From the NCBI GenBank assembly GCA_019096065.1, contig JAGUCH010000008.1:4655001-4719000 (forward strand): a DNA stretch of 64,000 nucleotides, written 5' to 3'. The translations under genes and the position numbers were made by a program. Under the pieces are notes generated by a model. It saw nothing but the letters and a program-made list of their open reading frames with translations. It had not been told where the DNA came from and did no database searches. Each line of letters opens with the position of its first letter. Positions within the stretch are counted from its first letter, which is position 1. Origin of the DNA: Paracyclopina nana. Taxonomy: Eukaryota; Arthropoda; Copepoda; Cyclopoida; Cyclopettidae. Shown piece by piece: positions 5,804 through 47,601 of this stretch.

Positions 5804-8477
5804 GTATATATGCATATCAAGTGATTTTATATTTATTGACTAACTTTGAACTGAAAGAGCAATAGTAGCTCCTCGTTTACATGCAGAAAAAGTGTGCAAA
5901 AACTTTTTTTCCAGATCCACTTTGGCAAAGAGTGGCTGCAGAAGGCCGGAATTTATGCACATTTTTACCACCACAACGGCCATAATTACATTACTGATTA
6001 TTGGACTGCTACTTGCAATGTTGTAATTTTCGCCACCCTACTTGCAAATGAATGCCATGCTAGCTTGCCTTACTTATTATTATGCAGCCACCTTGTTTTT
6101 CTGCACACAACACTCAATAATAGATACAATGCATTTTTATTGCGCCACTATGGCACTCAAGCTGATGCTATCGATTTCTAGATCAGATCAGTGAATATCT
6201 TACAGCTATTCTTGTAGGGGATACGACGGAAGGAAATTGTCGGAATTTGAAGAAGGAATATATGGTCGTACGTAGTGGTGTGAAAAAGCCCAATTTTACT
6301 ACACTTCCTTTCTTTTCTCGAAGGTGGGGGAAAGTTGCGCATGAAATTGGTTTTGCTTTGAACTGCTGACATCATCATGGCCTTTTCAGCGAGGCCTCTT
6401 CATATTGTGATGACAATTAATCATAAACTGCACCAATGTGCTAATTTCTGCTACCTTATTGAGTATTTTTGCGCAAAGTGAGTGAGCTGTGTTACTAAGC
6501 ATCAGAAGAACTCCTGGGTCTAGCATTAATTCAAAAAGTTCTTGCCCGCGTCGTGGTCATGGTTCATGGTCACTAACTTTCAAGCCTGCAATTTTTCCCT
6601 GAAAATCTTAATTATCTCGGCTTTCTCCAGTTATGGTGGGGGGCTGAGAGCAGCATGATGCATGCCAGCCAAGGCTGCGAAATTGACTTTATTGGGCACA
6701 AATTTGGTAGTAGTTTGGCTTGATTAAAGTTTAGTATCCAGCTTGGTGTAGCTGCAGAAGAAGCCAGCAAAGCGTTTGTAGTAGTAGTATCGTGAAAAGT
6801 TCTGGCTTTCACTAAACCCATGGGATGAGGAGTTGCTTTTCTCGCCATCAACGCTTTGAAAATCGAGCAGTTAGGCTCTTTTGAGATTCCGAGCAGAAGA
6901 AGGAGCCATTTTGGTACTGAAGCCATAAAAGTCGAATTATTCTTGGGCCAATAAAGTGTCTTTATCGCTGTGTTTATTTTGAAATGGATGAAAGCTGCCA
7001 CACCACAGCTCTCAGGCAGAGCAGCAACTGCTACCACCCAACAAAGTGGAGTAGTAGTTTATATGGGAAAAGTTATTCTAGCCGCGTAGTCATAGTTCTT
7101 CTGTGCTCTGGCAAAACTTCTGCTTTTGGCCCCCTTTAAAAACAATGGTGGGCTGGTTGGCAAAACAGCATTAATTATGGATTTTGGAGAGGGCTTCCGG
7201 GGCCCACCAACAAGGCTACTATAGCCGCAACTGCTGCAGGTCTCGCAGCCTCTAAAATCTGGAGAGAGAAATTAACCCAGCCAAAGAGATGGAAAATGGC
7301 TGCTAAAAGTTTGCCAGTAGCAACAACAAAGTGGAGCAGCACGAATAATTCTGGAAACGTCCCATGGGAGCTCAAATATTAATTGGTGCTCTACTTCTTC
7401 GCTTCTTTGCTGTTTTTGAACTTGTATGGTATGTAAACACTCCGTTTTGTGTGCGCGCGGGGCTGGGTCAGCAGATTTTTGCCGCAGTCATAGTAGTGGA
7501 AAATGGTGTGTCTTTAGTGCTGTCAACAACAGAGTGGATGTGTTTTTCTCCTCACATCTCGTTTAGGATGACAGATATCCGCGTTTAGAAAGTGCTACTG
7601 TGTGTTTTCCGTCTCATAGGAATATCCCTTTTTTGAAGTTTCACCATATCATCATTTCTGCAGCAGTCCTCCTTTGATGTTTGAAATCAAATCAGATTCA
7701 TGGAGAAAAACTCCAGAAGTTGTCAGATTGGATTTTATGCCAGACTGGACCTGTCATTCTGCTAGAAAATTCAATCAGGCGGCGAAGAAGTCGTTTTTAT
7801 CACTAAAAATGTCCGAAATGTCAATGTCTCTTTCTGGCAATTGCTTTCTAAAAAGGCCCCCTTGTCTACTCTACCTGGCAATTTATCTTTCGCGAAATTT
7901 AGAAAGCAATTCAAGTCATTCTACTTTGCAGTATATTGTAATATGCAGTACTTTGGGTAGCACGGTTTTGGGTTGGATTCTACCACCCAAAAATATCGAC
8001 ATTTCTTGCGGAGCAAGCCTTTTGCTTGTCTTTTGTGACATCCACAAGTGCGGTTGTAAAACAGTCAAGGCTTTCCTCCATTCTTCCATCTACTACATTC
8101 TATACATTGTGGAAATACATTGTGTGAAGAATACGTGCGTGTACGTTTGAATTATTGGCAGCATTAACGAGCAGCCAAAAGCCTCTGTGACTCCCAGGAT
8201 ATGTCAGATTCTGCATTGTCCCTCAAATTGGCCTCAATTCCTTTTGTACAAGCATAGAGAGTGACACTGAAAAAGAGGTCTACTTTCTCGGATAAGCCTT
8301 TGCATGAGAGCAAAGTCTCAAAATTGTTCACACGTACGTCTTCGTGCAAATCAGGTCTGCTCCTCGTAGATTGTAGAATTTTCCCACACCTCTACTACAT
8401 ATATAGCTCAGAATCAGCTTACTGCATGCTACAATGTAAAAGATCAATACTCAAACTGCGGGTACTTTTTGTTGCAG
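5804..8477. other. Intergenic, possibly 5' part of the beat locus
   Basis: No convincing exon. The first Beat exon recognised downstream needs an upstream exon ending in phase 1 and carrying a signal peptide; I looked for it and found no match. The longer open frames (6612-7037 minus, 7674-8150 plus) lack domain or splice support. Confidence 0.4.
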
Positions 8478-23819: not shown

Positions 23820-26124
23820 TGGTGAAATTCAAATAGAAGTAGAATTCTGGCAGAAATGCCCTCTTTGCAATAGGCGAAAAATTGCTCATAAAATTGTGAC
23901 ACGATATGCGGAAGCTAGCAAAAAACTGTTGTAAAGCGCTGCATTAATTCGCCGCATTAATGGTTGCGACTCTTTGCTATAATTCTTGCTGTGACGTCAC
24001 TTTTATTTGCGCACCAAAAAAGTGAAAGCATATGAATTGAACTTTGCTAGAACTACTTTTCACTGCGATACGCACACATTTAATCGAAAAAGTTGGAGTG
24101 TCAGTGTGACGCATGAGCTTCATATGATTCACAAATGGGTTATTTTCCCAATATTCGGAAAGTTGTGCTCAGTAGCTCGCGCAACCTTTTCCAGTGAAGA
24201 AAAGAAAGCACGTCTTGTCTAGGAGGTTTGCTCGTAAGAATGCGATAAAAGTAATCCGTATTCAGGGCGTAATTCTGATCTTTGGAGCTGCATGAGGAGG
24301 AGGATATTGAAAAGCAATTTTTGTCAATTCTGTAGGAATCGCGAAAGGCGGAAGAACTTGCTCGCCCAATTCCGCCTGTGGAAACTGCTGAAACGGAAAC
24401 ACTGGAATATTGTGGTGACAGAACGGGCGAAAAAAGAAATGGCTGATCGCGAACAAGATCACATGAGAAGATGATGATAAAGATATTTTTGAAGAAATGT
24501 GCTTTCACTCGCGTGCTGAAGAAGAAGCCGCTATTAAAAAGTGCTGTTTTCGGTCTGGATGATGCAGTATAGTCCATTTTGCACAGCTGTTGCAAATATG
24601 AACAACAGTAGTTACCAACCGTGATACAGACCATAAAGCGAACTCTTTTAAGAACTCTTTAGCGTAGAGTATTTTGTGCCATTATCATTTACCATCACAA
24701 GCCGCTCCATTGCATTGTGTATGCAAGTGATTTTCATAAGTGGATGATTGTAACGCGTTCTTGTTGTGTTCAGACTTAAATGCTCAACTTTTCAAAATTT
24801 CTTCAGTCCGGATGGTTTTCCACAAAATGAATGACCAGTGAATCGCTATAACTGCTTGGAGTTTATTTTAGTGTACTATATAGATACGAGGGAATTTACT
24901 AAAGTCAACATTTTTAAGTTATTCTGCATTGTAACGTAATCATGATATGTGAAAGCATCAGGAGTATATTTGCGTAGCATTAATAGTTACAGTCATAGTA
25001 CATCATTGCTCAATAAAAGGCTACATTGCAGTCTACCTAAGCTAATTTGATAGAACTACAGGATTACTTTCGTAAAAGTAGAAGGCAGAGGTAGTTTTCA
25101 CGTTTGGCTGTTACAATTAAAATACGTAAACCTTCTTTTAAAAAATCAATGAAGCCGCGTGGGTTCACTTTTTTACTTCATGAAAAGGAAACCACTCCCG
25201 TCAGTATTTGCTTTGAGTAACCACTTTCTTTTGCACTGAAACAGCATGTTTGTGCTAGACTGGCTGTAATTTGTTGCTCAAATAATTGGTGGTAATGAGG
25301 CAAAATCTTCTTGCAGGGAGGCTCCAATAACGATCCCACAAATAAATATCCACATGTTGTTGTGTCTGCTGTGAAACCAGGCTGGCTGTAAATCTTACAT
25401 TTTTTGGCACCTTTTTCTCCTCCCTTGGGAGCAAGAAAAAAAGGTTGCTAGCTACACACACAGGCTGAAAATTGAGACTTTAAAACTCTGTCTAGCCTCG
25501 AAATCTAGCCACTTTATAACTGGGCACAAGGCATGCTAAGTTTTGCAAAGATGGCACTTTGTCCCCAGTTTTTCACCATGTGCACAAAGGTCCAGCCATA
25601 ATACCACAAGTGGGAAACTAGAAGTAGTATCTTTTTTGTCCAAGATTACCAGCCAAGCTATATCTTGTGCATCCCAAAAGGTAGCAGCTAGCAACGCAGT
25701 AGCCACTTTGGCGACAATGGCCTTTAGGAGTTGTATTTGGTAGATATGTATTTTTCAGACCAACAAAATGGGTCTAAGGGACCACACCAACTAACCCAGT
25801 AAAACACATTTGGTGGTTAGGTCATTTCTGAACTTTAATAATAGCATGGGTGGATAATGTAATTTCAAAAGCCTTAGAAAAAAGGAAGGAGGGGGTCAAT
25901 TGTCGAATCGCATGGAGCTACACGTGGCTTTGTTTACTTTTCGGCCATCTCGAGCGGAAGGTAAACACAAACGGGCGCGCGAATACGAGCTATGACTGTC
26001 ATTGCCAATTCACCAAGTTATGACACTCAAACAATTGGAAGATTGACTGTCTAGCCTGAGGTGAGGTTACCGGGGCATTAAAGTTGAAGCTGACAGGACA
26101 AAAAGGGACGTCAGCAGTCCCAGC
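23820..26124. other. Intergenic, no supported gene
   Basis: Short open frames only. A fragment near 24337-24480 has a plausible acceptor followed by a Glu-rich frame, but no domain and no partner exon. Nothing else is supported. Confidence 0.4.
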
Positions 26125-27115
26125 CTAGTTGAAGGCCACAGGGAGTTGGAGCCTGAAGGAGGAAAAGCTGTCAAAAATGCTCTTAAGTATGAACTCCCTT
26201 TTTTCTCTATATATCAAACCTGAGAAGAATAATGAGCCATAGCTGAAATGTATCGAATCTTTTTGGTGGTGAGTCTCCACAGTTTGCGCCTCGTTGCTCA
26301 ATGTGGCAATGGAAGAGACACATCTGAGGCCAAGGCTGAGTTGACCAGGTTGATTACGAAACGAGGCCTCGGTCACCTTGAAATCGAGGCCCAATATGGC
26401 CGTTTCGAGGCCATCCTCGTGCTGAATTGGCGGATATGGATGGAGAAGGTCTGGAGGCGCCTGCGAAAAATTGCGGTCACACGATCAGATAAACTTTTTG
26501 TTGATTCCCGCCGTCCGTGATCGCCAATAAATTAATAGTTGGGCCAAAAGTTTGTCATTATGTACCTACCTCTCGGTTATTGATGTACCAGTGCAAAGTT
26601 GCGGCTGGTTTGGACCGATCCGAAGTGCAATTGACCCTGACAAAATCGCCCACGTGGTAAGTATGTTTACCACCGGAAATGCGCGGTCGGCTGTTGGGGA
26701 GAACGATCACGCTTAACCGGTTTCTCTGAGATACTGTGTTGAAAAGTGGGGCTTCGGCTGAGACTTCACACCTATAACTGCCGGCACTATTTAAATTGAG
26801 GCTCAGCAAAGTGACAACGTTCTTGTCAGATCTTCTCTCCTAAAAGGTATTGGAATCCCAATTTTTCTCATGTTTGACTTAATGTAGTAAAGTTATTATT
26901 CACGTCAACTTTGACTCCAGGCAGGGAGAAAACGGTGATTTTTTGGTCTCTTTCGCCAGGAATGTAGCGGTAAAATTCATTGCCTTCTTTGTACCACTTG
27001 ATAGAGTATAATTCCTCTCCCTCTAGGTCGTAATAGCAACTCAGCGTGGCCTCGTCCCCAATGAACTTGTAACTAGGCACGTCGATCCTCGTGAGCCTCA
27101 CACATTCCACGAATC
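26125..27115 (-). CDS. Second beaten-path (Beat) family immunoglobulin protein, 5' end missing
   Basis: Three minus-strand exons join in phase: 27115-26904, 26839-26570 and 26460-26125. Ig1 shows LSCYYDLEGEELYSIKWYKE followed by NEFYRYIPG, the Beat signature, and its second Cys in SYRCEVSAEAPLF. Ig2 shows RPRISGGKHTYHVGDFVRVN, then NCTSDRSKPAATLHWYIN, then HEDGLETAILGLDFKVTEAS and the closing LSLGLRCVSSIATL. The match to Beat proteins is closer than for the plus-strand gene at 8.5-17.7 kb. The protein ends without a clear anchor, so it may be secreted. The signal-peptide exon must lie at higher coordinates (preceding exon ending in phase 1) and was not found. Its compact introns (64 and 109 bp) contrast with the transposon-expanded introns of the other beat gene. 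Confidence 0.9.
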
Positions 27116-30100
27116 CTGCAAGAATAAAGACAAACTTTGACCGATATTTTTCTCAACCCAAAAAAGGGGGAGAACGAAGTACATTAGCACAACTTTTTTT
27201 TACTCTTCTGCTCCTCACAAAACTCATTTACGTTCAAATAGTCCCATTTCTTTGAAATAGACCTATTAAAGCCAAGTTGTAGCAAGAGTTTCAATTTTTC
27301 CTTCTGCTAATAATAGGCTTTCCAGGTTGAAGCTATCACGTGCTCGCGCAAAAATGCCGCGCGTTTGTTGTGCTACACTTTATGGGCCATCAAATGGCAC
27401 ATCACGAAGTATATACACTCCTATCTGAAATTGGCTTTTGAACCGCTCGCAAAGAATCAGTTTGAACATGAGAGGCTCAAAATCCCACAAGAATGAGAGA
27501 CAAAGTTTGCATTTTGATTTTGAGGTCGTCCTCTAGCTCTCGTGGGGTTCGTTTTCTCATGCATTTTTATTTGTGTGGTGCCAAAATGTTGCAGCAGTCT
27601 ATATACTGTGTAAGTAGGTGGTGTCCAAAATGGCCATTATTTTTCATAGTCATGCATATTATATTTGCCGCTAAAATCGATGAGTTAAAAGGTGTGGAAC
27701 TGTACAAATATCATTAGATGGCCGCGATCTTTTTTACTTAAGGGTCTTGCTGCTTTTTCTTGGCAAACACTATAATGGCCAAGATTAAGGCCGAAAGGTC
27801 GTTTAGATTCCGAATTTATGGAGGATTTTGGGCTCACCAAACCAAACCACATAGGCGTGGGCGAAAAAAGAAATACTAAATGGCAACTTATAGGAGCTCG
27901 TTTTATTTGTCGATTTCCCTCCATTCAACTATGGGCCATTATTATGGGTAGAGTATATGGAAAGAAAGACTTTAACCTTTTTGAGGATTCGCTGCAAGGC
28001 CATAAAATTTGCGTAAGCAGCTTAGGCAAGTTAAGGTAGAGGAGGACATTAAGTTTCTGTCTTGTTTTTGCCCGAAAAAAGTTGGCGGCATTACCTCCAC
28101 AAAGCCTCTCTCTCAAAATCTAGGAATTGCATATTGAGGTTTTCCCCTTTTATGGAAAAGATTCCAGCCCCAGCTGCAAGATTCTTCCTTATGGAAAAAA
28201 GTTTTGCCAACTCTATTTTCCGCGTGATTTCCCTCATAATAATATCCGTACGAAATATGTCCTCACAGCTTCATGATCCATTGAAGAAGGAAACTTTGAG
28301 AGCAGCTCAATTTTCTCGGGATTCTTGCTTTTATAATAGTGCGGTATACGTAGGCGTGGATACACTGGCCAAGAGATGTTTTGAGTTCAGTCCAATCATC
28401 GGCACCTTCTTAAAGAGTGAGAGAGAGTGTGCTACTCAAGGCCAAAAAGGCCAACTTTGAGAAAGTACACAGTGACCCTTTAAATTGACATGCATTCAAA
28501 ATGCTTAATTGCATGGGTCACCTTTTACTGAAAAAGAAAGCATCTATGAATGTAGTATGAATGCTATACCAACTATTTTTCAAGAAGTCATGATGGATTT
28601 GCCTCACTGTGATCTCCAATATTTTTGAAGATTTGAAAAGTTATACCCTATATGAGGACATCAAACAGAAGTCAAACGCAATTTTCAAGCCTTGCTTGAT
28701 TGCGATCAGATCGCGCATATCTGCCATGTCTATGCTTATAAGCCAAAAAGCCGATATGTGAGATTTTTGCGGCATCCGATCAGTAGAAGTAGTGCTTTGA
28801 ATTGGGACAAAGTTTGGCCAAGAAGAACCTAGGCAGACTCAAGGAGCTTCTTGATGAGACGTGAGATGTTTGCAGAAGAAGCATTCAAGCAGTAATCGTT
28901 ATAATGCTACAAAATGTACTACAGCGTCGTCGTTGGATTGCAGAGAAGAGCTTGCATGCAGTTTGATCTTATTATGCGACGCCAGCTAGGTCACCATGGT
29001 TATAATCGTGGTACACTCCAAATTGACATCATGACAAGGCGGTTTGATACAATTACATTTCTGCCCACTCAGACATATCCAGATGAAGATGACTTCCAGA
29101 TGATTCAGCAAGGATTTCGAGCAGCTTCGAGCGAAGAAGAAAAAAGCTCCTAAGCCCATTTCAGGACCCCATTTAAAAGAAGTTTCATTAGTAATTTAGA
29201 TGTTATCAGGCAAGTGTGTAAATTCCACTTTCACAGCTAGCTTTGTGCCATAATGGCACTTCATTCCAAATGGAGCTTTCATCGTTTTATTAATGGCATC
29301 AGCTATATTTCCCCCAACTAACCAACCAACAACTCTATAAATAGCAGTAACATCATGATGCTATGCAAATAGCTATAAAAGGCACACAATGTATTTTTTG
29401 TGTTTCCTCCCCCCCAGGGTCCACTTTGAGGTGTCCAAAGCCCAGCAGCAGTAATAATAGCTAGCTAGAAATGCTACAAAAAAATCCCCTATTTTCCCTA
29501 TTTGGGTGGGAGGATCCGGCACCTAAATAATCATTGATCTTTTGTCTCTCTATCCTTGAGAGTGCTGTGACGAATTAAGTTTCTAGTACTCGGTCCTCCT
29601 TTTCCTTGTCTCCAGATTATTGCAAGTTAGGATTACGATGATCTGCATCTGGATAGCCACCATCACAAATTATCGACCCCTTTCCCCCACTTGAAGATGT
29701 ATTATACTACTTGGACACCACGTGTTTGAGAGCTGCTCATTTCATCCACTCAATTGGGCGTTGACTAGCTCTTGATGCTTAAGGGGGAAAAAGCTTTCTA
29801 ATTTCTAGGTTTTGTTTACCAATAGGCTTATATGGAGTTTTACCACCAAAAAAATGGGTTTAAAATAGAGCAATCCAACTTATGAGAGGGACCTTTAAGA
29901 AATTGCAGTTTTGAGTGAAACATAGCTAGAGTAAATTAAATAGTGACAAATCCAGGGAGTTTTGTTGAGCAACTGACTGTTATGTCCTGGCTGGAATATG
30001 TTCATTTAAACCAAGTCAATTTGTATGCTCGCATCATTAGCTCTGGCAAAGGAAAAGTTTCACTGGATTGAACAACAAATGAAGTCTCAGGGATAAAATA

Positions 30101-33100
30101 GGGGACAAACTTTCTGCGTGAGGCTGCATTAATTAGTCCCACTCTTATTTTCTGCTGCGACGTTTTTACAGATGAAACAGTCACAGTGGCAACATTGCAC
30201 AGTGGCGGAAAAGACTGCAGAAATGTCTCCCCTCCAGCTGCCTTAATGAAAGGCCGAATTCATTAGCATTCAAAGCTCTGTAGAGTATAAAAAGGCCGTT
30301 CTATAAATTGTAGTACGACTAGCTACGTTACTATACAGCCTACATGGATTTTTTTCTCAGTGTGAGTGTTTAGTTTGCGGAAAACCATGCATGCCTAAAC
30401 TGCAGCCAACTAGAAGAAAAAACAAAAACAGTGGAGAGAGAAAAAGTTTCCCTTTGGTGGCAGAAAGGGAATGAATTGATTAAGTCGCAGTATACTAGTA
30501 CGTATAGCATATACTAACGAAAAACTTTCCTCCCAAAAAGAATAGCATAACCCAGAAGGTCGTTTTCGTCTGGTTCATGCCCAGCTAACTACGCCCCCTT
30601 TTTTGCTGCTTGTATGTCCTCTAATTAAGGCAACAGCGAGCTGCGAGCTAGCGAGCAGCTATGGCTATACGTAGTAGCATATTTCCAGCAAGCTTCAGAA
30701 ATTAGGCTGTTCATTGCTCTTCTAATCTTTTGATAAGTGACTAGCTTTGATATTGTTGTTTTGGGGCCATCTCGTAACGCTAATAGAAACACGTTTGCAT
30801 TTTCCCCTTGGCTAGCCACGAGAGGCCATCAATCTTAAGGAAATTGGCCGATGCAAGTGACGACTCTACATCAAGTATGTGAGTGTGCATAGCAGGGTAA
30901 TCAGAGCTGCTGCTGCTACTACTATACACTGTTTAGAGCTCGAATCTTAACTTGTCTTTCTCTCTTGCTTAGCCTTACGATGCCCTTGGGAGGAGCGAGC
31001 CAAAAAGGCTGCAATGAATATAAACAGTACTACAACAACTTCTGCTCCTCGATAATTGTCTTTGACATGCTATCAACTGAGGAATTCTTTTGGTGTCTTT
31101 CAGCATTTTTATTAGGCGCAATTAACCATAGCCTAAATGGCTCTATATAGTGACCCACTTAATATTCCGCGAGTGTAGTTTATGAAATAATCCTGTGCTT
31201 CGCAAGTTTTGGAACTACATACTTTGTCCTAGTATTATTATGCCACTAAATGAGCACATCCGGCATTGCCTTGTCAAAGTTACGCGCTATATATAGCAGC
31301 AGCGTTTCTCATATACATAGCAATTATAAGTGGCACGGAAAAAAGCCACGAGCTTTCGAGAGAAGCCATCGAGTCGAAACTCATCCGAGCCATTTTAGCA
31401 TGAAAGCTTTCAAATAAAAATGTTGCAAGCAGGAACCTTCTTCATAAGAAGAAATCAGCTGCTGTCGTTGCGCAATGCTATCGCTGTAACAAGGAACAGG
31501 AAAGTGCATTGCAAAAAAGACGGATGAATGTGTAACAACAGACGAGCTTTGAGCTGGGGGGCAAATCTGTGGTTTCCTCCAATATGTTCTCAGGAGTGAA
31601 AGCTGCTAACGATGATTGAATACCGAGAACCAGCTCAGTTTCCATTAACACTTCTAATCCCTCTCTCAGCTGAGATGAAATAAATGAAGTCGCGGCAGCG
31701 TGAGCGTTAGCAACAACAAAAAGCTGCGCAAATTAGCCAGCTCTACTCATATACTGACCGCAAAACTCAGCCAAGCCTCCGCAGCTGACGATTGATTGAT
31801 CTAAAAAAACTTGCTTTTATCAGCTTTTATCATCGAGTTGAAAGGAAGTGCTGCTACTCCACCTAAAGTGATAATATTTCCTTTCCATCAAAAGGAGCTG
31901 GCAAAAAAACTTGATATTATACGCTTGGTAAGAATCGTGAGCTCTTTGTTAACCTACTTTGTAGATACTATTTTATGGCTATTGCGATTCGGAATTATTA
32001 TGGTGAAGCTGGGTCACAATTCACAGCAATGGCACTTAATCATGTTGCACAAAAAAGTTGGAGCTAGTAGTACAAAGATTGGCCCACATCAGTTGATAAA
32101 TGTGCGGCCTCTTTTGAAAGCAAATCAGCAAGCTTTCCATCCCTTTTCTTGCGCTACACAAAGCCTCCCTTTCTTTTTTCTCCTTTTGCAGTTGGATACC
32201 TCTTGTGATTGTAGACAAGTCGACATTAAGCCTCGAATTGCCCACTTTTCTTGGCTTGACAACACTGCACAAGATGTCCCATTTGTCAGCAAAAGATTTA
32301 GAGGGTTGTGTGCGTACTGTTACGCGTGCAATGCAACTTCCAAAACCAAAAATTCAATTTGCATTAGGACCCTTGCATGAGCCCTTTATAGACTTGACTT
32401 TGGAGGCCAAGAAGGAGGAGAGGTTGAACAATGCACCACATGGTGGAAACCTGACTAATAACGGCAATTTTGCCACTTTTGTATTTTTACATGGCTCCCC
32501 ACCAATTAGGAGAAAATTGACAAAAAAGGCCGCAGAGTAAATTGTGGAACACGAGTGGCGGCCTGTGTTATTTGCCAAATGCCTATGCACTTTTCCGCCA
32601 TGGTGTTGTCATACCATTTCTGACCTTTTCCCGACATGTTTAACCAACTGTGTTGAAGAAGTTAGCGTTCGTCGTCGACCACACACAAAAGTTTTCCACT
32701 TTTTCAATTTCCAGAAAATAAAAGTTTTCTTCATGGCTGTGCAAATAAGGTCCTTTGAATACTAAACTAAAGCAATCAAGCTGTATGGAGAAGCTGAGGA
32801 AACCTTCACCAGCCCGAAAATCTAAAAGAGTAATTGATTCAAGTTGGTGTACTGTTCTTGACAGCAGACACTTCTTCCAAAGGAGCAAAAAGGAAGAAGT
32901 TGCAACTTTTGTTATTCTACTAATGCCTTTCACAAAGTGACCCTAATTGATTTGTTGGCTTGGATGACGAAAGTCATTACAGCCTACCACTTTTCCCAAT
33001 GTAAGTTATGTATAGGGGTGCTTTTGGCCTCCTGGAATCATTACCTGCAGATCCAGCCCTGGGTGAAAAATGCACGAAATGACCAGTGCGCCATGGCTAA

Positions 33101-35880
33101 TACATATGACTGTGACAGATATTTTTACTTGGGTGGATTTTGCTCCTTTTGAAAAGGCAAATTATTTGCCTAGCTTGTTATTTATAGGGCAGCTAAGATT
33201 ATAAATTGCACTTGGCAGTAATAATGCTGTAGTTGCTTGTATACCATGGCTGTTTTACCAACATTGCAGCTGCAGCAGTAAACTTCCACACCGTTATACC
33301 TTTTCCCCTCTTATTTATTGTTTCATCCTAAATTTAGCTCAGCTGACTCAATTGAGTTTTAAAAAGGGCCCTTTCTAGACTTTTGTGAATAGTGGTATAT
33401 ATTGTGGTAGTATGACAAGAAGCCTTTCTTGGCCACATGTTGCCATAGGAAAGTTAGAGAGTCTTGGCAATAAAAGCCTACTTGAAAAATGACGTGCTGA
33501 GTGAGAGTTGTATTTGACCCTGTATTTTACAGTAAAGGAGCAGGGGGAAACAAAAAGTATTGAGAACAGCAGCTTCAGTAGCAAATTCCCTAACATCAAA
33601 CGCAAATTGGCTTTCAATACTTTTGGCCGCGAGAGTGTTTCATGATGGCGCATATTTAACAGCATTAAAAGCATGATGTTGGCCTATTTTTCAAGACTCA
33701 TCTATGCTGCACTTCGTCATTGGACAAATGAATCCCGAGGGAGAGAAACAAGTTGATTATGCACTCGAGACCATCATGGAATTTCTGCTTATGCATTTTT
33801 CGTCTATATAGTATAGCATAGCTCACAGTCATAATAATCGTTAGTGACTGGTGCTGCAAAAGAAATAGCAACTAATATTTACGTGACAGCATTATTATTC
33901 GTATTTACGCTAATCTTTCTTGACATAAAAGAATAACTTCCTTCTGGCGACTCACACCATGATTACCACTAATACCTGAGGTCAATACCACGCCATGCCA
34001 CGTACTAGTACATCAAGATTATACTAGCAATTGTGCACTACCATTTTTGGGAAAACTTAGAGTAACAAGTACTTTTGCACGAAGTGTCAGTGCACAATTC
34101 TATTAGTATAACTATACATTCAATAGCATACCATGTAAGTTGTGGTTATAGTACGTAGTGCACAACTAGATTACCAATCTAGCTAAAAATGGTTCTTGCC
34201 AACTTGGGAATCACTGAAGGCCTTAGCTAATGAAGAGGAAAGTACCTAAGAGGCTTTCTTTGGGACGATCTCTAATGACGAGGAGGTAATTAACAAGAAC
34301 AGCATTGCTTTCATGTCTCACCAAAATACGACTGAATATGCATGTAATATAGGATTACGTAGAAGAAAACACGCACAGCCTACTTTATTCAAGTTAACTT
34401 TGCTGCTGCTATTTGATCGTCGTTGGCCAATGCAATTGTGAAACCTTTTGTTGAGATTTGCAACTTTTGGCCTGGCTAATATCTAATGTTACTTCAAAGG
34501 TCGAACGAAAAATATCACCTGCCTGGCGTAACTGAATGAAAGCCCAGCTATGATGTAATTGCTTACACTTAAAGACCTGTCTACCTTGCTTTATGCCATC
34601 CAATGTATGTGACGATTTCAATCATTCTTTTGTACCAAATGGTGTCAAGTGACATGAAATAAAGTATTTTTGCTCCACAATGGAAAGATCAATGATCATT
34701 GACGTTGAAGAAAACCCTTTCTCTCTTTTTTCAAGTGCAATTTTGTATTCAGTTTCATGGGATACTATCTTGCTGAAAAGCAAGCTAGTCAGCCAGTCTT
34801 AAAATAATGGCAATTGGACCAGTTTGACAAGTGACATTTTGATCACTACTTACCTGACAAGTTGATAAGAGTCAAAAGCCAAAAGCAGATCTTCATATTT
34901 GCCACCCTTTTAGCTTTGGTAGTTGACCAGCATGAAGAAGACTTTTGTGGTCTATAAATGTTATTACCACAATGGTTAATGTTGTCCGACACGCGTTACC
35001 TCTCGAACTGAAGAGACAGCAGCAGCTCCAGCGCTTTTACTGTCGGAAATGGAAAGTGTTATACACTGCTACTGGTATACCACGACTATATACTGTCGTG
35101 CTCTTCGAGGCTCTTCGCGGATTTTTTCCCCTCACTTGCTTTTCATTTTCATAATTAAAGGTCAATTTGGCTAAAAGCTTGCATATAAGGGTGAAGGAAT
35201 TCTGCTAATTAAGAGCTACTTTCTCAACAAAGAAGCTAAGCTGTAATACAGCCACTCTATACCAGCTTATTCATGCAGTGTGAGGAGAAAGGGGAGTGGC
35301 TTTCACTTTTTGAGCCGAGCGTTGAGCCGTAGAATGCCGTTGAAAATACGGAATACAGCTAAACGTCTCGTGAGAGTGACCGAAGATGCGTTCTCCTATA
35401 CATATAGTACTATGAACTTTCAATTCTAATTTTAAGAAATGTTAAAAATTGACTCGAAGCCTAGAATTTTAAAAGTGTTCACAATTAGTTCACTGGATCC
35501 GGCTGCATACAGAGGCTTTGTAAAAAGTTGCAAAACGCTCGAATTAATGCACATGCATGTTATCAACGGTGTAATGAGTGAACTTCTCTGCTACAGTCAT
35601 AAATTGAAAAAGTTCCTAAAATTGCTCGTTTCCACAATATGTAGCATGTAAGATACTACGTAATAGCTAGGATGGCACAAATTGCAAGCATACAATTCGT
35701 ATATAGCCTGACCTGTATTTCAGCGCAAGGAAGAAGGCATGTATCCAAGGTTGCCTAATAATACAGTGTGTGGTAAGGTCAAGTATTTCTCAATTGATCC
35801 TGATTGGCCTGCAACTGTAAGCAAAAGTTTCCCATGCTATTGCTGTAGCATGTAAAAGTATAGAGTAGCCCAGTGTCCCA
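27116..35880. other. Large gene-poor interval, possibly the 5' intron of the minus-strand beat gene
   Basis: About 8.8 kb without a convincing gene. Weak items are 28914-29153 plus (79 codons, perhaps a transposon remnant), 31811-32540 plus (overlapping frames of 189 and 111 codons in different phases, no domain) and an exon-like segment at 35724-35816. The missing first exon of the minus-strand beat gene could lie anywhere here. Confidence 0.4.
35724..35816 (+). other. Isolated exon-like segment, 31 codons
   Basis: A good acceptor (CTGTATTTCAG) and donor (ACT|GTAAGC) bound a 93-nt open frame starting RKEEGMYPRLPNNTVCGKVK. No partner exon was found and the family is unknown; it could be chance. 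Confidence 0.22.
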
Positions 35881-37996
35881 TTAGTCTTCTTGGTCTTTTC
35901 TAGTTGCCTCGTTGCTGCCAACTTTATGCTGTTCTTGCTGCTGCGGTCCATGGGCCATTTTAGATACAGTCATTGTCACTTGCGCCACAGTTTTCCCGTC
36001 CAGCTCAGTGGAGATGCTTACCACGTAGTCCATTTTGTCATCAAGGCCATCAAACCGAGCGCTGTATTTGTACATGGAGTCTACATTCAAGCCAAACTCT
36101 TCGTTTGACATACTTGACGTGGTAGAGGCTGTGGAGAAGCTCTTCTTTGGCAGCGTTGAGTCCATATGGACGATGAGTGATTTCGTCTCACTTGAGATAG
36201 ATGTGAAGTCGGGGATGTCATGGTAGAATTGAGACTTGACTGGAGCCTCGAGGAGGCTCTCATTTTTGTCCAAATGTGCAATTTCCACCGTGTATTCCAG
36301 TTGTGCTCTTGGAATGGTGCGGTGAATGTAAGGGCAAATAGCAGCATCATTCCAAACGACCAATGCTGATCTGGGTGCATCTCCATTATCTTGTGGTAGT
36401 TTTTTGTCTGAAAAAATCAAAGTTGCCGTATTTTAAAATTGTTCTTCGATCAAATAAAATTCAAAGAGCTGGTAATGCCCAAAAGAATGTATTTTCATGC
36501 TAGTCTGTGACCTTCAGTAGATTTTGATACACTTTTTGATCAAAAGATTCCTAACAAAGTGCCGATAAAAAATTCATACGCTAGCTTTAATTTTTTACCT
36601 GCATCGAAAAGTGTTTGGTGGGGTCTTTTGAGGATCACCTGGTGATCCTGCGTCTTCCACAGCCTTTGGAAATGCTTGTCAAACACACAAAGGAGTCGGA
36701 AGCTCTGTGACAATCCGTTTGGCTGCTCTGCTAGCAAGTTCATGAGCAATCGGAAGTCCCTCGCTTTCTTGTCGTAATACATATCTAGACGTATTTCCGG
36801 AGGACAGCCTTCCCCCTTTCCAAGGTTCACGCACGTTTTGGGTATCTCAAGCTCTTCGAAGCTTTTGCTTGAACGCCTCTTGCAGCCAGACAGCACTTTT
36901 TCTAATTTCCCCACTTTGGGGTGAACCAGCCATAATAAATTGTAGCTGGTCAATGCCATGTACCCAATCAGGGAAAAAAGACCGATGAAGTAGACCACCT
37001 GAAAAAGACCCAGGAAAATAAGCAATATAGTACATACATGAGGCTTTCTATATTTCCTTGAATGCTTACATTGAAAAATCTGCTGTTGGGTATAATGCAC
37101 TTATAGAGGATTCCGTGTACATCACAGTCAAAGAGAGGCCGATTTAGGCCTTTGATGTTTGCGAATCCGCTGAAGAAGATGGTCAAGATGACTGACACGA
37201 TCAACTCAACCGTGGTTCTGTAAAGGTAAGAGTCGTGAGCTCGAGAGCTTTTTCTGAATTTCTGCTTCATCTCATGGGAGTTTTTAACAGTCTCCTTCTC
37301 CAGGTTGGCCACGTCTTCTCTATTGAGGGAAGTCTTCACCAAGGAGTTGTACAGGGCCTCCAAGTGCCCCTCGGATCCATAGAACCTTACATTATTTTTA
37401 TCTTGAATTTTGCATGACAGTGGCCTTTTGAAAAATTACTCACTTGATGAAAACCCTCTCCACCATAATTAGCACCATTGGAATCACCATCATGATGAAG
37501 GAAAAATAGAGGAGAAAAGGAGAGACATAAATCTCTGTGCAGTACTTATTGGCATAACTCCTCAGAAATCGAGCTGTTTGGCCCTTGAAAGAATAACATT
37601 TTATTCTACCTTTAGTTGTAACCTCTATTCAAAATGAAGATTTTACTGTACCACGTTGATTGAGTTTGGAGCTATGACGACTTCAGGTTCAACTTCATCC
37701 CATTCTGCATCCAAGGGTTCATCGGGGGTAGGCAGGGAATTTTCTTCCCACAAACTAGGATGCACTGCACACTCGATTGGAGTTCCAGACAAAAATGTCA
37801 TTGGCAGAAGAATGAGGGCTAGAAATTGGCGAAATTGCAGGGGGGAAATTTGCTCTTTTTGAAAGAAGTTCTTACCATATATCACAAAAGAGTACAATAA
37901 GTTGTCTTCCAATGTGTCCCACCAAGGCCTGAAGGCCATTTCAGCATCTGAATGCATCAGAATTTTCTTGCTCAGATCCCCAGCTAAGGCAGCCAT
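35881..37996 (-). CDS. LRRC8/pannexin-like four-TM channel subunit without leucine-rich repeats
   Basis: Six minus-strand exons fit in phase: 37996-37876, 37818-37652, 37583-37444, 37385-37070, 36998-36599 and 36407-35881, giving about 556 residues. After a 40-residue N-terminus containing FRPWWDTLEDNLLYS come TM1 (ALILLPMTFL), an acidic extracellular loop with Cys in IECAV and KYCTEI, TM2 (SPFLLYFSFIMMVIPMVLIM), a cytoplasmic loop, TM3 (ELIVSVILTIFFSGF), a second loop with two Cys (FDCDVHGILYKC) and TM4 (VVYFIGLFSLIGYMALTSYN). This layout, the PWWD motif, the DCxV...YxC loop and the post-TM4 segment DFRLLMNLLAEQPNGLSQSF match the pannexin-like half of LRRC8 volume-regulated anion channels better than innexins. 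The C-terminal ~230 residues show no LRR repeats and are unrecognised. Channel function is inferred. Confidence 0.78.
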
Positions 37997-39364: not shown

Positions 39365-41321
39365 CTAATAAACTTTGGGAATGAGATTGGCAGGTACTTT
39401 TTCACAATAAGTTTGCCATGCAAGTCCGTACTTTTTGCGATTGCGTTCGTTCTGCTGCCGACACCTCATGAGAAGGACAAGCGTTGTGAAAATTGGTAAA
39501 TAGTATACCAAAAGGTCAACTCGGCCCGCAGGTTGAACTGAAACGAAAAATACAATTAGAAATCAAATTCAACTAAAATTAAGAATAGCTTCTCACTTGC
39601 TGGCAAAACCCAGGACCATTGGATGAGAATCTCTCCAAGATAGTTGGGGTGTCTAACCAGGCCCCACCAACCCGAAATCAACAGCTTGCGGCCTCCAGCA
39701 GTGGGCAAAGTCTCCAAATCTGAAATATATCTTATGTGAGTTTTTCTTAAACGCATCAAGAGGAAAAAGTAAGTACGTTTTGTAGCAGCTCCGTTGGGGT
39801 CCTTGGCAAATTCGCATCTCTGGTTTTCAGAGGCTCTGAAAATAATGTATCCGAGAGCGTTGATGATGCCAATAGAGAGCAGGCAATACCATGGCAAATG
39901 GGGCCTGAAAAATTAATTTTATAACATTGATTTCCAAAGATTATTTTTTTGATGACTTACTGTCTATCAATGAGGTACTTGGTAATGAGAGTGGGCAAGA
40001 AAGGGAAGCTGCTATAGGAAGCCACCAATGAGAATCCAAATCCAGTATTCATAGCATCGTGAGAGAAGAAGAAGTATTCCTCGAAAAACATGGCATCCAA
40101 AGCATAGAGCACTTGGAAAGCGGAGGCAACGACCACAAGGCCATTGACTTGGCCGCCATGCTTCATGATATCCTCAACAACGAGCACGGTATTGAGCAAG
40201 GCCAATCCAATCATGGAGAACCTGAAGGTTTGCAGCTTGACATCTTGGCCAAGAATATTTGGGTTGTATTCTCGTCCATAGAAGAAGTCCACGATGAAGT
40301 TGCCTGTGCTGCCCTTGGGGTTGACGTTGGATTTCCTGCCGTTGGCGAAGTGGGCCCACAGCCTCACAATGAGGGCCATGCAAAAGGCAAAGACCAGGGA
40401 CGCGGTCATCAGGTAGAAGTATTTCACTCGCACAAATGAGAGGTCAATTTTGCGGTACACCACGGCAGGTATAAAGGTCAGCAAGGTGACGAGGGAGATG
40501 AATCCATTCATGCGCACTTGGTGGCCAGTCGAGGTCTTGACCAGAGATCCAATTGGGAGTACACTGAGGAATCTCAGTATGATGAAGAATCCCACAACAG
40601 CCATGAAAGCCTGGGGATCCCAGTATCCTTTAAGGTTGCGCGGCAACTTGTCAAAAGGCAAGGCTGGCTTGCACGAGGCCTTGGAGCAAAGCGTATGCAG
40701 CGAGATGAGGATGAAGGGGAACAAGGCCATCATGAACAGAGCTCCCACCCATTCGAAGCTGAGGCCTTTGAGGAAAGCCAGAGGGCCTACGCCTTTACCC
40801 TTCGAACGATTGGAGTGGCTAGGATTGGGAATGGCCTTTTTGCCATGGGTCTCATCGTCGTCACTGATGGCATCCACGCGAGCTGCGATGCGCGCAGATT
40901 GCCTGGTGGGTGTCATGTCCGCTTTGGGCGCAGCCACCACAGTGGTTGAGGTTCTACGTGAGGTAGACGGGGACCTTCCAGGGCTCTTGGACGCAGAAGC
41001 CTTTCTGCCAGGGCTGCGACCACGGCTGCGACTCCTGCTGGTGGGAGTGGCCTTGCCAGTGGCTGCCTTGGGCACGGTCCTTTTTACTTCTTTGGCCTTG
41101 AGGGTGTAGACAGTGCCATCCTCGAAGAGAACGTCGTACTCGTTGTCGTCGTCTCGCACGTAGGTGACTTTGGACTTGAAGTAGAGCGAAGTGCCTGGCC
41201 AACGAGCCATCACTTGGTCTCCTTCCTCAAACTCCATCACTGCCGGCTTCTTGGGGGTCTTTTTGCCCTTTGACCCTTCGGCCCTCCCCTTGGAGGCACT
41301 CCGAGCTTTGCCACTTGGCAT
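39365..41321 (-). CDS. LBR: Lamin B receptor / sterol C14-reductase family, with Tudor domain
   Basis: Four coding exons on the minus strand: 41321-39961, 39904-39777, 39719-39597 and 39537-39365, with short introns in phase. The N-terminus carries a Tudor domain (about residues 30-80, EGDQVMARWPGTSLYFKSKV) and a basic Ser/Arg-rich stretch (SRSRSRGRSPGRK), the chromatin- and lamin-binding part of LBR. Several membrane segments of the ERG24/DHCR family follow, ending with FFYGREYNPNILG, LLISGWWGLVRHPNYLGEIL and KKYGLAWQTYCEKVP. LBR anchors heterochromatin at the inner nuclear membrane; in vertebrates it also reduces sterol C14 double bonds. Several positions that enzymes of this family keep are changed here (see findings), so the enzyme activity may be lost, as reported for insect LBR. 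A 5' UTR acceptor lies at 41337-41338 and a noncoding first exon ends at 42751. Confidence 0.93.
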
Positions 41322-41336
41322 CTTGCTTGATCAAGC

Positions 41337-46063: not shown

Positions 46064-47601
46064 TCAATGTGAACTTGAATGGTTTGCATGTGCAAGAGTT
46101 CCATAATCACAGTGTCCACCACCATCACTGTCCTCATGAGAATCAATTTGGAACTGAAATATGATAACCAGAAAAGTTGCCATTGTATTCACCATCTGGA
46201 AAGAATCCATTAAATATTCCAATTTTTCCAATGACTACAAATCAAGATGTACCATCATGAAAGAGTGTCTGGAAAGTCCAAAAAAGCCTGTTGCACTCAA
46301 AGTCGTTTCAACTTGATCCAAGTAATCAGACATGACACAACACTTGTAAAATATTTTTTTAATTATTTAACTGAGATAAAGATGAAATAAGATACCTTTT
46401 CTTGGCTCTCATTGTCCAAAAGCAAGTACCCACTTGCACTTGATTTCAAATAATGCTTCATGTTTTCTGCTCTGTTAATTATGATTTGGCAGTAATTTGC
46501 CAAAGAATAAATTGAAATAATGTCAAAAGTAACGTAAGATAGAATGAAAAAAGCTATATCGTAATGACACCAGCTTATCACCACAAAAGAAAAGTAAACC
46601 AACATTATAGTAGTAATGAGAGAAGTGAGAAATCTAATGAACACCATTGGTGAATTTGCATCAATGATAGTTTTCAAAATGTCAACTAGCTCATCAAGCA
46701 ATTCTGGGAAAATGTTCAATTCATTTTTCCACATCTCACGTCGATTGACCATTCTTTCATGTAAGGCTCTGAGTCGATCATTGAAGCTGGACAGCATGAA
46801 CAAAAATAGGAGGTATTGAGATCCATAAGTGCAAGCCACAATTATTGAGTAAATTCCCGTTAAAGCAAAAGTAAATGCACAATTCTGAAAGACAGACTCA
46901 ATCAAGCCAAAGTAATCAAATTGGCAGGACTCATTGCCCATCAAAAAGCCAAAAGCAGTAAATGCAGAAGCATAACAGAGAGTGATGAAGAGTAAGAAAA
47001 GTTCAAATTTCCCATTCCCTACAGGTCTGATATTATGGCTTAATAGAATGTCATCAAAGACAGCAAACTTTTGTAGCACTTTAACTACCTGAAACCATGT
47101 TTGCATGCAAGTGAAGTAATTTCAAATAATCTTTCATTTCTTACAATTGGGCTTCTTTTAATGCTGAAACCGACCAATGCAACCAAAAGAAAGTAGTCTG
47201 GTAGGGATCGAGATGAAGCATCCAACCGAGAAATGGTATTTTCAGCCAAATTAAATGTAATCAAGCACTTAGAATTTGATTGAATTAGTCATATTGATTT
47301 ATGAATGCAACTGGAATTTTGTTACTCTAAGACATCCAATGATAATTAGGATAATCAGCCAAATTTGTGACCAAATATGAATTGCACTATTTTTTTCAAA
47401 TACCCATGGAAATGTTTCAGTGGAGCCTTTAGTCAAGGGAGTGGTCAGAGTCCATCTTGTAAGCCTGAGGAACCAATTAGCCTCTTTGTAAATCATTGGC
47501 TCACATCCTCCTTTTAGGTTGTCATAACTTTTTCTAAAATAGTTTGGTGGCAATGGATCCACAGAGCTGACCTTGATAACTCTTGATGAATCTGGTTTCA
47601 T
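46064..47601 (-). CDS. Gustatory-receptor-like 7TM protein
   Basis: Five minus-strand exons join in phase 0: 47601-47326, 47267-47145, 47088-46396, 46342-46253 and 46195-46064, about 437 residues. The protein has several hydrophobic segments (SQIWLIILIIIGCL, DYFLLVALVGF, LFLLFITLCYASAFTAFGFL, FTFALTGIYSIIVAC, TTIMLVYFSFVVISW, FILSYVTFDIISIY) and ends with VNTMATFLVIIFQF, which matches the TYhhhhhQF signature of arthropod gustatory receptors in its last transmembrane helix. The short exons near the 3' end are also typical of that family. A short Asp/His-rich tail follows (HEDSDGGGHCD). A role as a ligand-gated cation channel in chemosensation is inferred from the family. The ATG at 47601 is chosen because the earlier in-frame codon is GTG. 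Position of the fourth exon is the least certain. Confidence 0.75.

Follow-up and report, generated by a model that had tools for sequence, protein, structure and literature searches.

A copepod gene family with a candidate LRRC8-type pore and a probably FN3-like domain in place of leucine-rich repeats

The LRRC8 channels (LRRC8A-E; VRAC/SWELL1) are described as pannexin-like channels that acquired leucine-rich repeats (LRRs) (PMC3928549, PMC9399500), as restricted to chordates (PMC9851909) and as having likely arisen with the chordates (PMC5064130). A gene on the minus strand of a 64,000-nucleotide stretch of Paracyclopina nana DNA (the window) raises the question of whether the pore of these channels also exists in an arthropod, joined to a cytoplasmic domain other than LRRs. 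The first-pass annotation had taken the host for an arthropod, in agreement with what the genome contains: a run of five TTAGG units gave 5,073 matches on one strand and 4,205 on the other (overlaps counted), those listed falling on contig C1 close to its beginning and at 17.75 Mb, and the cuticle domain PF00379 gave 80 matches. Both the repeat and the cuticle domain are features that we take to be arthropod markers. The insect odorant-receptor family had no match in a search whose control stayed silent as well. Our main reading, with a probability of about three in four, is that the window gene codes for one of the subunits of a large-pore anion channel that is LRRC8-like but has a different cytoplasmic domain, a function proposed from sequence.

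The channel gene runs from 37996 to 35881 in six exons encoding 556 amino acids, and its stop codon ends at 35881. Its features are the following:

37876..37996, minus strand: exon 1, aa 1-41, with the start codon, the N-terminus carrying FRPWWD and the start of TM1
37652..37818, minus strand: exon 2, aa 41-96, with the remainder of TM1 and the first part of extracellular loop 1; Cys57 is at 37771-37769
37444..37583, minus strand: exon 3, with the end of extracellular loop 1 and TM2; Arg101 is at 37571-37569 and Cys111 at 37541-37539
37070..37385, minus strand: exon 4, with the cytoplasmic loop, TM3 and extracellular loop 2; Cys230 is at 37126-37124 and Cys239 at 37099-37097
36599..36998, minus strand: exon 5, aa 249-381, with TM4 and the helical region after it
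35881..36407, minus strand: exon 6, aa 382-556, with the C-terminal domain and the stop codon
35944..36369, minus strand: FN3-like domain with a long loop inside, about aa 395-536, from the family profile; probable, not proven

The introns measure 57, 68, 58, 71 and 191 nt, and their boundaries were picked by hand as GT-AG. The same six exons were recovered when the 556-aa protein was aligned back to the DNA, which is a consistency check and not independent proof. Hydropathy analysis gave four hydrophobic spans (29-59, 111-147, 196-223 and 245-273), so that both ends of the protein should lie on one side of the membrane. Many charged residues occupy the loop that joins spans 2 and 3, and four conserved cysteines sit in the loops opposite, which would place both the N- and the C-terminus in the cytoplasm. 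Cys57 and Cys111 precede TM2 and Cys230 and Cys239 precede TM4; FRPWWD occupies residues 22-27, and a D-x-x-x-L-x-x-LL helix (Asp329 to Leu337) follows TM4. The four cysteines are invariant and the helix is kept in all seven aligned members of the family to which the protein belongs.

That family was found by searching the 92-Mb genome (10 contigs). The window protein matched 19 places at E up to 10, of which six are its own exons and the other 13 belong to contigs C6, C4 and C2, while PF12534, the Pfam model of the pannexin-like region of LRRC8, gave a single genomic match, in C7 (on contig C7), a gene beyond those found with the window protein. No additional family loci came up when the genome was searched with C7 or LRRC8A. 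Six paralogues were modelled (C6b, 524 aa; C4a, 495; C4b, 483; C2a, 779; C2b, 629; C7, 967), and the family in this genome, window gene included, has at least seven genes. The fitting procedure permits GT-AG introns only, so the canonical splice sites of the paralogue models are there by construction; the C2a model is uncertain in its middle and includes a 4-nt exon that is probably artefactual. Identity within the family and to the window protein is 18 to 36% over the alignment, the C4a/C4b pair excepted, which argues that apart from this pair nothing in the family is recent. Sixteen columns of the seven-member pore alignment are invariant, the four cysteines among them.

Three of the six paralogues and one lone first exon share the 121-nt first-exon length of the window gene, and four of the six share the phase at its end. 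Third codon positions have changed more than first and second positions in both paralogue pairs tested. The six paralogues, the common first-exon length and phase and the third-position excess speak against a chance open frame and confirm the window gene as a genuine gene. We consider it very unlikely that the gene is decaying or encodes no channel, whether as a pseudogene or as a membrane protein with the fold and no pore: the lone first exon at a neighbouring paralogue locus would suit such a reading, but the seven models are open, their four cysteines are invariant and the codon-position bias is present in two paralogue pairs. The lone exon itself lies before C6b (L021:2041-2161, contig C6); it is complete, with a GTGAGT donor and a PWWD motif, and no matching rest was seen. 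It could be a broken copy, or C6b could use it as an alternative first exon and thereby exchange the N-terminus of the channel.

We then asked which channel family the pore resembles. The best Pfam match of the window protein was PF12534 (E 8.5e-4, 18.9 bits, below the cut-off of 25), and against the PDB the protein alone reached LRRC8C at E 0.19 only. Taken alone it is a weak case, and the LRRC8 likeness becomes decisive only through the family profile. Whole-length Pfam scans covered the window protein and five of the six paralogues (C4b being scanned by its C-terminal domain alone); PF12534 was matched by all five scanned paralogues (E 4e-12 to 0.018), above cut-off in three. A profile of the seven pore regions found 29 distinct sequences among PDB chains at E up to 10, namely 26 LRRC8 sequences (A, C or D chains or chimeras; best LRRC8C, E 4.4e-27) and three of pannexin-2 (best E 1.1e-5). 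The LRRC8 similarity spans the N-terminus, TM1, TM2 and TM3-TM4, and the pannexin-2 match covers profile positions 152-301, from TM3 to the helix after TM4. The PF12534 check proposed in the first-pass annotation therefore succeeded at the level of the family but not for the window protein by itself. As a scale for these values, pannexin-1 searched against the PDB found Innexin-6 at 2.5e-5 and LRRC8D at 0.36 only, and an innexin from this genome found Innexin-6 alone.

Innexins, CALHM proteins and connexins were absent from the 29 PDB matches of the family pore profile. Solved CALHM and connexin members are present in the PDB, and with 0/29 matches a CALHM or connexin identity is disfavoured. 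Profile-profile comparison with hhalign gave 98.8% over 244 columns between the family and LRRC8A/C, 44.6% between the family and pannexin-1 and 27.2% between LRRC8A/C and pannexin-1; the family against six innexins of the same genome gave 1.9%, and those innexins against pannexin-1 14.4%. In the reverse direction, human LRRC8A searched against the genome at E up to 10 matched four places, all in family genes and none in an innexin: C7 twice (1.5e-4 and 0.003), C4b (0.13) and C2a (0.5). A canonical LRR-bearing LRRC8 elsewhere in the genome was not found with PF12534 or LRRC8A in these exon-by-exon searches, which a finely split gene could escape.

The similarities to LRRC8A-E comprise the PWWD N-terminus, TM1 to TM4 and the outer-loop cysteines; the window protein differs by a shorter TM2-TM3 loop in the alignment, by lacking an LRR domain in favour of a probably FN3-like C-terminus, and by its arthropod host, LRRC8 being reported as chordate-restricted. 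Innexins share the topology and the two-plus-two cysteine plan, and this raises the possibility that the family consists of very divergent innexins of this genome, in which the YYQWV signature was lost and the sequence drifted toward LRRC8. The innexin family here is large (109 exon-level matches at E up to 1), and hhalign found a weak common stretch of 37 columns at TM4. However, PF00876 was matched by none of the six scanned members (for the window protein, among families listed up to E 10), Innexin-6 is missing from PDB matches in which LRRC8 reaches 4e-27, and the ordinary innexins with a YYQWV-like TM2 in the same genome stand apart from the family, whose TM2 lacks YYQWV. Together with the 1.9% hhalign value and the tree comparison given below, these results make an innexin origin very unlikely.

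Phylogenetic analysis used 16 rows: the seven family members, LRRC8A, LRRC8C, pannexin-1 and six innexins, a narrow sample of the superfamily in which PANX1 is the only pannexin. The family and LRRC8A/C formed one side of a branch with support 98/97, and when pannexin-1, the longest row, was left out, the six innexins split from the nine other rows at 100/100. Branches were long in both trees. The approximately unbiased (AU) test rejected trees joining the family to the innexins (p 0.028) or to pannexin-1 (p 0.026); both rejections are modest, come from one common likelihood difference (9.7) and were posed after the tree had been seen.

Pannexins PANX1-3 share with the family the four-TM large-pore plan, an FFPYILL-like TM2 and the helix after TM4. 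A pannexin identity is disfavoured by the AU result, with PANX1 alone in the tree, and PANX2 is a weak profile match only. A broader version of this idea is a separate lineage on the pannexin side, neither LRRC8 nor pannexin, whose union with LRRC8 would be due to long branches or to slow-changing common parts. In its favour, pannexin-2 is the sole other family that the profile found, from TM3 to the helix after TM4, the branches are indeed long, and the family lies nearer to pannexin-1 than LRRC8A/C do. Against it, the LRRC8 likeness is far stronger and extends over the N-terminus, TM1, TM2 and TM3-TM4, pannexin-1 stands apart in the tree, and its union with the family was rejected. We regard such a lineage as unlikely. 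The LRRC8-type pore that the first-pass annotation had proposed is thus upheld by the family profile, the reverse LRRC8A search, the profile-profile comparison, the tree and the AU tests; the landmarks that it named (PWWD near the N-terminus, two cysteines in the second loop, a helix after TM4) are all in place, and neither the Pfam and PDB profile searches nor hhalign and the AU tests matched innexins or a different four-TM family better.

The C-terminal part of the protein is where it departs from LRRC8. Pfam detected no LRR family in the window protein or in any of the five paralogues scanned over their whole length, and the reading frame of the gene stops after the C-terminal domain. Hidden LRR exons 3' of the gene were looked for by a motif scan of 12 kb on its strand: the three minus frames of 24001-35880 contained 0 copies of LxxLxLxx[N/C]x[LIVF], a count to be read beside an average of 0.3 in shuffles and without a positive control. 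As the LRR domain is missing, we do not class the window gene as an LRRC8.

What stands in place of the LRRs is probably an FN3-like domain. The C-terminal segment aligned across the seven members has one invariant column and a mean column identity of 33%. Its profile matched 12 sequences in the PDB, nine of which are fibronectin or tenascin, with a best E of 8.7e-6 that adds up weak stretches in the domain's last third. The domain end follows the FxxLxPxxxYxxxxxTxxNG-like pattern of FN3 proteins, and C2b ends in a stretch that resembles the end of one fn3 stretch of C7 (BLAST, 38 residues, E 0.004 with a 10-kb target). C7 continues beyond the C-terminal domain with four Pfam fn3 stretches (E 2.9e-28). 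On the other side, the Pfam fn3 model matched the C-terminal domain in none of the seven members, hhalign of the domain against the C7 fn3 units was weak (1.7%), and the window domain differs from known FN3 proteins in its long loop and in its cytoplasmic position, as predicted from the topology. The first-pass annotation was largely right, and its statement that the C-terminus carries no LRRs is supported by the six scanned proteins and by the lack of an LRR motif in the downstream scan; its description of this part as having no known fold is probably wrong, since the family profile points to FN3, a likely though unproven assignment.

Two paralogues have C-terminal arrangements of their own. 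In C7 (L025:2158-5171, contig C7), TM1 and TM2 are in exons 1 and 2, and one 2,475-nt exon spans TM3 through the four fn3 stretches to the stop codon; this gene has the top PF12534 score among the scanned members and the best LRRC8A match in the genome. C2a (L023:3931-6931, contig C2) seems to carry a fused thioredoxin domain (Pfam E 5e-9) with a CGLC motif, and a single open exon (6113-6530) runs from the last part of its C-terminal domain into the thioredoxin. The fusion could alternatively be two genes run together.

How a pore of this type came to be coupled to FN3 bears on its age. The family may descend from a true LRRC8 that lost its LRRs and acquired FN3, by replacement or by an old transfer followed by replacement, as opposed to a lineage that never had LRRs. 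C7 groups with LRRC8A/C inside the family in the 16-row tree, weakly (82/67) and with the placement lost when pannexin-1 is removed, and a review repeats the chordate origin yet reports LRRC8-like genes in the cnidarian Nematostella and suggests horizontal transfer (PMC9399500). These Nematostella genes give a non-chordate LRRC8-like gene a precedent. On the other hand, LRRs are absent from all six scanned members, the AU test did not reject a tree in which the seven genes form a clade that excludes LRRC8 (p 0.31, one genome), and identity within the family, C4a/C4b excepted, is already as low as 18 to 36%. We hold a descent with replacement to be possible, though doubtful. The first-pass annotation had named two origins, descent from the pre-fusion state and a lineage with replaced LRRs, and the data from this single genome, which give the change no direction, would fit either. 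Our wider proposal, for which we see the chances as even, is that the LRRC8-type pore is an older animal module and not a chordate invention, coupled to FN3 (in one gene perhaps to thioredoxin) in this arthropod lineage and to LRRs in chordates, and that arthropod subunits with and without arginine at the filter place would build heteromeric volume- or redox-gated anion channels of their own.

The filter place itself was read from the alignment with LRRC8A. Arg101 of the window protein lies ten residues ahead of Cys111, as R103 lies ahead of C113 in LRRC8A, where it lines the outer constriction (PMC9851909, PMC10480491). Arginine is found here in two of the seven members (Arg101 of the window protein and Arg96 of C6b), and the others carry G (C4a and C4b), I (C2b), N (C2a) and M (C7). 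Within LRRC8 the arginine belongs to A and B only, with Leu or Phe in C, D and E (PMC10049205). Arginine in two members against G, G, I, N and M in five suggests that the family forms mixed Arg/non-Arg channels, in the way that LRRC8A combines with C, D or E. As channels without R103 stay anion-selective (PMC10480491), Arg101 alone predicts little and proves no selectivity. The N-termini offer a further likeness that is only suggestive: C6b reads E7-V-R9 where LRRC8A has E6-L-R8, and D7 and K10 are found in the window protein.

From these features a working model can be drawn. The window subunit would assemble, by itself or together with paralogues, into a hexameric or heptameric pore predicted to pass anions and small osmolytes. 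Its outer constriction would be lined, in this subunit, by Arg101 at the place of LRRC8A Arg103. The cytoplasmic end, probably FN3-like in place of LRRs, may relay an opening signal through the helix after TM4.

Nematostella aside, no invertebrate, FN3-bearing or LRR-less LRRC8 was found in the literature searched (open-licence papers), nor did that literature yield an arthropod LRRC8-type family in which FN3-like domains take the position of LRRs. Finding an LRRC8-type pore that carries a different cytoplasmic domain, and finding it beside ordinary innexins in a protostome, allows the sequence of the pore and LRR steps to be tested, and the FN3-like variant would serve as a natural experiment on the part of the LRR domain in gating. 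Arthropods would gain a candidate volume-regulated anion channel in addition to bestrophin, of which Drosophila bestrophin-1 is the example.

Other observations concern the surroundings of the gene and its genome. The innexin family looks unusually large for an arthropod, with several of its matches arrayed in tandem at C8:4.06-4.07 Mb. Upstream of the channel gene, its nearest neighbour is a lamin B receptor gene (39556-41330, likewise on the minus strand) with LBR_tudor and ERG4_ERG24 matches. Further upstream, a 252-residue open frame (46366-47121, minus strand), which had no Pfam match at E 0.01, reads like a gustatory receptor.
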